IMG/VR virus record: IMGVR_UViG_3300044678_001503
Coordinates: 1 to 28,956 of that record
From: a virus
DNA: 28,956 nt
Strand: one strand, 5' to 3'
A program made the position numbers and the translations under genes. Below are positions 16,936 through 19,464 of this stretch, piece after piece. The number at the start of each line of letters is the position of its first letter. Position 1 is the first letter of the stretch. The notes under the pieces are model-generated. The model was not told the origin of the DNA and ran no database searches. It saw nothing but the letters and a program-made list of their open reading frames with translations.

Positions 16936-16954
16936 GAGAATCCTAAAGATTCTC
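16936..16954. terminator. Small hairpin at the convergent junction
   Basis: GAGAATC (16936-16942) pairs with GATTCTC (16948-16954) around a 5-nt loop, exactly where the plus and minus operons meet. The tail on the minus side (TCCTTAATTATT) is T-rich; on the plus side none is seen. The minus-strand gene's stop (16943-16945) lies in the loop. It is a weak shared terminator candidate. Confidence 0.45.
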
Positions 16955-17362
16955 GGAATCGGCGATGAATGGCTCGAGCACCGTAAGGTCGTTCGGGCTA
17001 ATCATCACGTTCTTAAGCTCCACTGCAAACAGGGGAGTAACCTCTACTTCAAACTCAGTAGATAGATACTTTTTCATCTCCGCCTCGAACGCTGCTCCGT
17101 CTTTCAGCTTATAGCCTACTGCTTTTCTGGCATCGCCCTCGCCTTCAAATTCGAAGATAGGGTTCCCAGACTCATCCATCTCGCCGTGCTCTTTAAGCAG
17201 ATCAGACATGAACTTGATATGGTCCTTCTGCTTCTGATCGAGTCTGTCCGCAAACCGCTTCATCTTATAAGAAGCATCATACGGCATCCTCTCATTCATC
17301 ATCGCCTGAAATACGCTATACAACCGTTCGTTTACCAGAATACTATTTTTAAGCTTTACCAT
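16943..17362 (-). CDS. Phage protein resembling DUF1617 (139 aa)
   Basis: The sequence has a long N-terminal helical part (LVNERLYSVFQAMMNERMPY, then SYKMKRFADRLDQKQKDHIK) and an acidic middle with MDESGNPIFEFEGE, ending in MISPNDLTVLEPFIAD. This layout, and the KNGE/ESGNPI turn followed by a ISPxDLxxLEP ending, resembles the DUF1617 family of phage proteins of about 140-150 residues; the link is from memory. It overlaps the nuclease gene by 14 bases and is the last gene of the minus operon. The function of the family is unknown. Confidence 0.55.
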   Translation of the reverse strand: MVKLKNSILVNERLYSVFQAMMNERMPYDASYKMKRFADRLDQKQKDHIKFMSDLLKEHGEMDESGNPIFEFEGEGDARKAVGYKLKDGAAFEAEMKKYLSTEFEVEVTPLFAVELKNVMISPNDLTVLEPFIADSENL

Positions 17363-17660
17363 TTACGATGTCCTCCAAGTGTTGCATGACTACGTCTAAG
17401 TTCTCCGGGTATACGAGAGTAGCGTAGCCTCCGCTCTCGTTAATCTTTCCAATGTTATATAGCTGTAGCTCGGTTGCTGGGGCAGTCCGACTCCGCTTCA
17501 GCTCCAGTCCCACGAACCTCCCGTTCACACAAAGCAACAAGTCCGGGGTTCCCCTGATCGACGTTTGCTGAATCGTGAACGTCACTGTACGTGGCAGCTT
17601 TCGCAGTCTCGACAACACACGCTTTTTGAACGTCGATTCTTTTGGCAAGGTCGTCTTCAT
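17349..17660 (-). CDS. VRR-NUC-type nuclease (103 aa)
   Basis: The PD-(D/E)XK core is visible: G37-T38-P39-D40 followed by a strand and E53-x-K55 (LELKRS), then ATELQLYNI with Gln66. Spacing and the final GGYATLVYPEN strand fit the compact single-domain VRR-NUC nucleases of phages, which act on structured or damaged DNA such as junctions. The ATG at 17660 is followed at once by A, giving an ATGA sequence like the other junctions of the operon. The first 206 bases of the gene lie inside the open frame of the DNA polymerase gene in another phase (see findings). It could resolve replication intermediates. Confidence 0.8.
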   Translation of the reverse strand: MKTTLPKESTFKKRVLSRLRKLPRTVTFTIQQTSIRGTPDLLLCVNGRFVGLELKRSRTAPATELQLYNIGKINESGGYATLVYPENLDVVMQHLEDIVNGKA

Positions 17661-19464
17661 TGATGTCGTTTAGTCTACCCCATGTTTTACCTATGTCTAC
17701 AGAAGTAGACATTCCAAGACCATTTCGAGATGGATATACTTCTACCATTATTCTTTGAATTTGAGGAATTAAATTAAGTTCATCTTCAGCCATTTCTAAT
17801 TCGATTGAATCATGGACTGTAAGCACGATCTTAGACTGATAGGGCTTTAGGAACTCATGCACTGCAATCAACGCCCTCCGCATGATCTCCGAACCGGAGG
17901 ATTGGATGATATAATTTGGCCCCTTATACGCAAAATTACCCCGCCTTTTTACACCGTCCTGGTCGAACTCAATCACTGGGAAGTGCAGCACCCTGCCTGC
18001 GAAGTTAAAGATATACCCACGGCTATCAATAGTTGATTTGATGTTATTAATTAAACTACTGACCTTACCCAATCGTGAGAAGTATAGGTTCTTAAGCTCG
18101 GTGGCTTTATCTACCGATACTTTCAGCATTGTCGCAATTTTCGGCGCTGCTGCACCATACAACAGTGCAAAGTTCAACACCTTCGCAGAGTAGCGATCTA
18201 CACCCATCATCTTGGCCGTTGCGGAGTGGACATCTACTCCTTCGTTGATTTGGGAAATAAGATTACGTTCTCCCGCGTAATCAGCCGTAAGCCTGTACTC
18301 TTGGGCTTGGTAATCGATGGATACGAAGACAAATCCTGATCGAGCTTTAAAACTATCTCGAACTCTGTAGTCCCCGTCATCTTCACTGTTGAGAGTTTGA
18401 AGTGCAGGGTCGACGATTGAAAATCGGAAAGTGTCCGCTGCAGTTTGTTTAATAGATGGTCTAACAACTCCTGCTTTATCTCCGTAGTAGGTAAAAGAAT
18501 TGTAATAGGTATTGAGTCGTTTGTAGGCATCTCGATATTCCCTAATTACTTTTGCGGCGGGGTGTTGGATGGTTTCGAGAACTGCGTCTGTAAAGCTTGC
18601 ATTGCCCTTAGCGGTAGTACCTCCCACAATCCCATTTGCTCTGAAGACCTCGGATAGCTGTTTATTGCTGTCAATAAGCTCTGCGCCAGTAAGTTCGGTG
18701 AACTGCGCTTTCGCTTTGTGGATCCTGTATTCTTCCCTCTTCTTTGCTTTGTCGATGTGTCCATTGTCTAGTTCCATTCCCCTTCGCTCGATGTCGAATA
18801 ACACTTTTGTGAGCTTGCGCTCATCGTTGATTAACTGCGAAAAACTAACTGGATACCCTTTAATCTTGGAATACTTCTCCGTCAACTCCTGTACTTTTAC
18901 AACTTGTGAATTGTAAATTTCATAGGTAAGCCGTGCATCTTGCAGGGCGTACTTTGAGATAATCTCCAAAGGGACTCGATCGAATCGGGGGTTCTTCTTG
19001 ACCGTCTTTTTCCCCGGTATTTCCTCTTTGTCGTATAGACCGTGTTCGCTGATGTAGGCCATAACGCCTCCATCTTTAGACCCAAAGCCCATCCGTTCAG
19101 CCACGGCATTGAGGCTGTATGATAGATGCCTATTGTAAATACACTTATCGATAACCAGAATATCCCACGGTTCATAATCGGTCCCCCAACCTTCATTACA
19201 TAGGAAGTGCATATCGAACTTGGCGTTCGCAAATGCAACTATCTTCCCCTTCACTGCTTCGTAGATTCGGGGGATTAGTGCGTAGTCTAAACCGGAAGCA
19301 CCAAACCCAAAATAAAGCTCACCGAAAGCTCCAGCAGCCGTAATAGCGAAAAGCCTATCACCATGATAAGGTCGGAGGCCGCTTGTCTCTGTGTCAAGGC
19401 TGAGAGAAGTACAATTACGGATAGTTTCAACGCTGCTTTCAAAGTCCTCAGTAGTAACAATCAT
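17455..19464 (-). CDS. Family A DNA polymerase with 3'-5' exonuclease (669 aa as read)
   Basis: The exonuclease domain shows D24-x-E26 (LSLDTETSGL), NAKFDMHFL and Y-x3-D in YALQDARLTYE. The polymerase domain shows RFSIVDPALQTLN, motif A DYQAQEYRL, motif B RYSAKVLNFALLYGAA and motif C VHDSIELE, where Ser replaces the usual Glu after His-Asp. AAGGGG precedes the ATG, which overlaps the exonuclease gene's stop (ATGA). A normal ending would fall near residue 600 (GKTWGRLNDI). The frame instead runs on for about 69 residues over the nuclease gene in another phase, with no recognisable domain. It is the replicative polymerase; the tail may be spurious. Confidence 0.92.
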   Translation of the reverse strand: MIVTTEDFESSVETIRNCTSLSLDTETSGLRPYHGDRLFAITAAGAFGELYFGFGASGLDYALIPRIYEAVKGKIVAFANAKFDMHFLCNEGWGTDYEPWDILVIDKCIYNRHLSYSLNAVAERMGFGSKDGGVMAYISEHGLYDKEEIPGKKTVKKNPRFDRVPLEIISKYALQDARLTYEIYNSQVVKVQELTEKYSKIKGYPVSFSQLINDERKLTKVLFDIERRGMELDNGHIDKAKKREEYRIHKAKAQFTELTGAELIDSNKQLSEVFRANGIVGGTTAKGNASFTDAVLETIQHPAAKVIREYRDAYKRLNTYYNSFTYYGDKAGVVRPSIKQTAADTFRFSIVDPALQTLNSEDDGDYRVRDSFKARSGFVFVSIDYQAQEYRLTADYAGERNLISQINEGVDVHSATAKMMGVDRYSAKVLNFALLYGAAAPKIATMLKVSVDKATELKNLYFSRLGKVSSLINNIKSTIDSRGYIFNFAGRVLHFPVIEFDQDGVKRRGNFAYKGPNYIIQSSGSEIMRRALIAVHEFLKPYQSKIVLTVHDSIELEMAEDELNLIPQIQRIMVEVYPSRNGLGMSTSVDIGKTWGRLNDINEDDLAKRIDVQKACVVETAKAATYSDVHDSANVDQGNPGLVALCEREVRGTGAEAESDCPSNRATAI

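Follow-up and report, generated by a model that had tools for sequence, protein, structure and literature searches.

A long overlap between a phage DNA polymerase gene and the nuclease gene behind it, very probably a product of stop-codon drift

Our comparison of a 28,956-nucleotide viral sequence (IMG/VR record IMGVR_UViG_3300044678_001503; the whole stretch is called the window here) with related phages indicates that the overlap between its family A DNA polymerase gene and the small nuclease gene is genuine, co-directional and unusually long. We consider it very likely that the overlap arose by ordinary drift of the stop codon, the upstream gene being elongated at its 3' end to a chance stop, with no purposeful new protein part. 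This reading is supported by the same frame and phase in 6/6 close relatives, a graded series of overlaps (8–119 nt) in distant phages, and overlap lengths that match simulation. In addition, the fourfold-site rate is unreduced, the end points are variable and the tail is predicted to be disordered.

The polymerase open reading frame spans 17455–19464 on the minus strand and encodes 669 amino acids. The polymerase proper, with its exonuclease and polymerase domains, corresponds to residues 1–601 (17661–19464, minus strand) according to Pfam (DNA_pol_A_exo1, residues 2–186; DNA_pol_A, residues 239–596), a PHROG match (phrog_17) and AlphaFold, and ~70 residues extend beyond the DNA_pol_A domain end. 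Residues 602–669 and the stop fall within the first part of the nuclease gene, which follows directly (17349–17660, minus strand, 103 amino acids). The resulting out-of-phase overlap is 206 nt long (17455–17660, minus strand), and the nuclease sits in frame +1 of the polymerase, one base later. The first-pass annotation had seen the polymerase frame run 206 bases out of phase through the nuclease gene, with a TGA overlapping the nuclease ATG one frame away, and both observations hold. That TGA, part of the ATGA at the nuclease start (17657–17660, minus strand), is in the third frame in the frame display and is not the polymerase stop. The pair lies on one strand with an offset of one and shares more than the 6 bases that define a phase-1 unidirectional overlap; both genes are real by their Pfam or PHROG matches, and the overlap is kept in the orthologues of six relatives. 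The nuclease gene itself overlaps the next gene (16943–17362, minus strand) by 14 nt at 17349–17362, the usual junction being 4 nt.

The nuclease is a small VRR-NUC/Hjc-like enzyme of the PD-(D/E)xK type with an intact motif (E8, G37-T-P-D40, E53-x-K55 and Q66), and E8, G37, P39-D40, E53, K55 and Q66 are invariant in alignment A4. It matches phrog_93, an endonuclease family (E = 1.4e-13), and by profile the nuclease structure 4qbo of the PDB (E = 2.9e-05). Judged by profile matches, the label VRR-NUC appears fair but not exact, because the window protein has no Pfam or NCBIfam match at the 0.01 threshold, while of 12 homologues searched against Pfam, two match Hjc, one VRR_NUC and one RecU.

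Six IMG/VR records (L001–L006), with polymerases 69–89% identical to that of the window, served as close relatives. Repeated viral scans and a DNA pattern search returned the same six, a scan of genome contigs found no relatives, and blastn against isolated phages gave no match. In all six, the polymerase frame has the same phase and stays open over the first 137–206 nt of the nuclease gene (206, 158, 206, 137, 137 and 206 nt, in order), and none of these polymerases ends near residue 600. Polymerase length across the clade is 650–671 amino acids, the end point shifting by ~20 residues. The nuclease ATG is conserved in 7/7 genomes, the window included, and the nuclease frame closes just upstream of it. 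With L003 almost identical to L006 and the window close to L001, the seven genomes represent about five distinct lineages.

The polymerase gene also carries an AT-rich divergent patch near its C-terminus (17680–17865, minus strand), seen in sliding and segment identities. AT content is 62–69% in sliding windows covering 17665–17864, against 53% in L001. Identity to L001 is 58–70% at the patch and 98–99% just downstream, with 98% at the polymerase N-terminus, 59–70% in 17680–17865 and 99% across the overlap. The segments 17680–17865 and 18716–18919 are 59–78% identical to L001, and the stretches between segments reach 94–99%. The gene is thus a mosaic, which suggests allele exchange within it. 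The first-pass annotation had read the patch as a hint of recombination near the junction; the patch is real and mosaicism is supported, but recombination was rejected as the cause of the overlap, since the identical 206-nt overlap occurs in L001, where the patch is absent.

Using the nuclease profile and a more distant polymerase as queries, we obtained about two dozen further contigs in which a family A polymerase lies directly upstream of such a nuclease. Besides the window clade, 16 lineages have a phase +1 junction, with overlaps of 8 (three lineages: L011, L029 and L084), 17, 20, 26, 29 (four lineages), 32, 62, 65, 86, 113 and 119 nt, although some of these nuclease starts were guessed at non-ATG codons and make the series noisier. 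Phase +2 overlaps occur in only four distant contigs, three of them the 4-nt ATGA, and the remaining contigs have no overlap. Phase +1 is thus the usual junction among these phages, and most of those outside the clade have short tails. Since phase +1 prevails in distant relatives, whose overlaps start at 8 nt, the window polymerase most likely never ended at the TGA of the ATGA. The proposal that a one-base change had removed this stop from an ATGA junction is therefore rejected, the same frame being open in 6/6 close relatives as well. The nuclease N-termini hold near E8 in the distant relatives and the polymerase end moves, which is the pattern of 3' elongation of the upstream gene and not of 5' elongation of the nuclease gene. 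In one distant contig (L065, 4888–5370) the polymerase frame continues for ~160 codons beyond its aligned C-terminus before a stop.

Within the nuclease gene, the polymerase frame can meet a stop only where a T-ending codon is followed by AA, AG or GA. When the window nuclease was recoded with polymerase codon usage, the median overlap was 35 nt and the probability of at least 206 nt was 0.02, rising to 0.18 when the nuclease kept its own codon usage. The window's overlap alone is long, not extraordinary. We extended the calculation to 17 lineages, recoding each nuclease synonymously with the codon usage of its own phage's polymerase. The observed median overlap of 29 nt equals the simulated median of medians (29 nt), and the mid-p values are compatible with a uniform distribution (KS p = 0.35). 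Fisher combination gives a slight excess of long overlaps (p = 0.037), and the window (p = 0.021) is unremarkable as an extreme of 17. Overlap lengths thus fit a first out-of-frame stop that is placed neutrally, with the window clade in the long tail of the distribution.

In the scenario that we propose, the ancestral polymerase stop would have lain just inside the nuclease start, with the nuclease at +1, as in the three distant lineages with 8-nt overlaps. Loss of that stop would carry the polymerase frame to the next chance stop, at a T-ending codon before AA, AG or GA; in the window clade, the first such stop lies 137–206 nt in, at nuclease codon 44, 51 or 67. Ribosomes finishing the polymerase would then add 45–70 residues, a short helix followed by a disordered tail, and the nuclease would start independently at its own conserved ATG within the translated polymerase frame. 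Our inference is that the tail is made and does no harm, and that nuclease initiation is weak and independent. The predicted tail, residues 602–669, should be translated under standard decoding. The nuclease Shine-Dalgarno sequence is weak in 6/7 genomes (-3.3 kcal/mol), whereas nearly all other genes of the window reach about -5 to -10 kcal/mol; L005 has a good one (-7.8). Reinitiation drops steeply with the distance between stop and start, in measurements with the stop placed upstream (PMC10666635), and the polymerase stop here lies 137–206 nt downstream. Therefore, with a weak Shine-Dalgarno sequence and too distant a polymerase stop for termination-reinitiation, the nuclease probably has its own, weak initiation.

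Alternatively, selection may hold the polymerase frame open. The overprinted tail might be functional, at least over residues 602–646 with the helix first, which we regard as improbable. We give a similarly low chance to a broader version, in which selection maintains an open frame across the first ~44 nuclease codons because either a functional tail or ribosome run-through of the nuclease start is needed, stops being avoided and amino acids left free. The evidence for selection lies in the missing stops. In nuclease codons 0–43 (the first 44) of the seven genomes, T occupies 0/41 of the positions where it would make a stop, compared with 24–30% elsewhere in the nuclease gene and 33% where the polymerase body has such sites. 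A general avoidance of T before AA, AG or GA was rejected as the reason, the polymerase body having 33% T there and 36% at other sites. Given that the window and L001 are open, the tree-based probability of zero T is 0.012–0.054 with T at 0.267 and 0.038–0.12 with T at 0.20, a conditional p of 0.01–0.12 from only about five distinct lineages. Stop avoidance over these 44 codons is thus a weak sign, suggestive at best; together with the Fisher excess, the absent early stops could reflect mild selection keeping the frame open.

Structure prediction bears on the tail as well. AlphaFold was unusable without an alignment (pLDDT 34) and worked with an alignment of 18 sequences, giving pLDDT mostly ~90 up to residue 601. 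A helix is predicted at ~603–623, with pLDDT 64–76 over 601–620, in favor of a functional tail, and disorder follows after residue 622 (pLDDT 25–37). Against such a tail, its amino acids appear unconstrained. A nuclease third position is a first position in the polymerase frame, and silent nuclease changes therefore usually alter the tail, yet the fourfold-site rate in nuclease codons 0–43 is 1.10 times that of the polymerase (CI 0.63–1.89; 10 sites only), similar to that in the rest of the nuclease gene (1.46 and 1.02). By this measure no amino-acid constraint is detected, and with 10 sites a modest slowing could be missed. In the alignment of close relatives, the tail varies without restraint where the nuclease codons allow it, its end point varies by ~20 residues, and most phages outside the clade do with a short one. 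The first-pass annotation's option of a genuine overprinted C-terminal extension is supported in so far as the tail should be translated, but nothing shows that its sequence is functional.

A +1 ribosomal frameshift could instead produce a polymerase-nuclease fusion, beside or in place of the free nuclease, and we consider this very unlikely. It would suit the +1 position of the nuclease, the weak Shine-Dalgarno sequence in 6/7 genomes (-3.3 kcal/mol) and a polymerase stop too distant for reinitiation, and the window, L001 and L002 have an AAA-AGA where the lysine tRNA could slip. However, the other relatives have CAA-AGA in its place, neither a stop nor a shared stimulator follows the candidate site, and the nuclease's own P-K-E-S-T-F motif accounts for the conserved letters. 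Moreover, the ATG is conserved in 7/7 genomes with the nuclease frame closed just before it, and L005 has its good Shine-Dalgarno sequence (-7.8). A -1 frameshift ending the polymerase, suggested earlier, is rejected: the alignment of the window and its close relatives contains no conserved slippery heptamer before 17660, nor the conserved slippery site plus stimulator or stop expected of programmed frameshifting. Although long co-directional overlaps in bacterial annotation are mostly errors (PMC2478687), a sequencing or assembly error, including the indel raised in the first pass, or a recent one-base stop loss in the window phage only is hardly credible here and already refuted, since six independently assembled relatives, at 69–89% polymerase identity, share the frame, the phase and the long overlap.

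Ordinary drift of the stop codon also agrees with what is known of overlapping genes. Published models make elongation of the upstream gene at its 3' end the commoner source of unidirectional overlaps and explain without selection why long ones are mostly in phase 1 (PMC3887535); a second model, based on start-codon composition, is likewise neutral in its conclusion (PMC2542354). When overlaps of at least 60 bp in 338 prokaryotic genomes were surveyed, no co-directional case was judged real and all were put down to misannotation (PMC2478687), so the present junction is a well-supported co-directional overlap of more than 130 nt in a class dismissed there. The phage junctions, from 8 to 206 nt in one phase, offer a natural test of neutral models of overlap length. 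They also warn gene callers that such gene ends should not be trimmed, and readers that an open frame is not the same as a functional extension.

Among known systems, the isolated Nitratiruptor phage NrS-1 (AB746912) likewise has a replication gene that overlaps a nuclease gene of this type by 83 nt in phase +1, but there the upstream gene is a helicase and the overlap is shorter. As annotated, NrS-1 (L072; 537–1334, 1216–2580 and 2498–2773) has successive phase +1 overlaps, RecB/helicase of 119 nt and helicase/endonuclease of 83 nt. The holD-rimI pair of Enterobacteria, the longest co-directional overlap accepted in the 338-genome survey (up to 56 bp; PMC2478687), is similarly real and has a genus-specific end point, but measures 32–56 bp, compared with 137–206 nt in these phages. 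The long phase-1 overlaps of prokaryotes (PMC3887535, PMC2542354) are the closest in kind, being co-directional, in phase 1 and extended at the 3' end to a chance stop without selection. Those analysed there are at most 59 bp, whereas the overlap described here is 206 nt and is backed by relatives beyond annotation.
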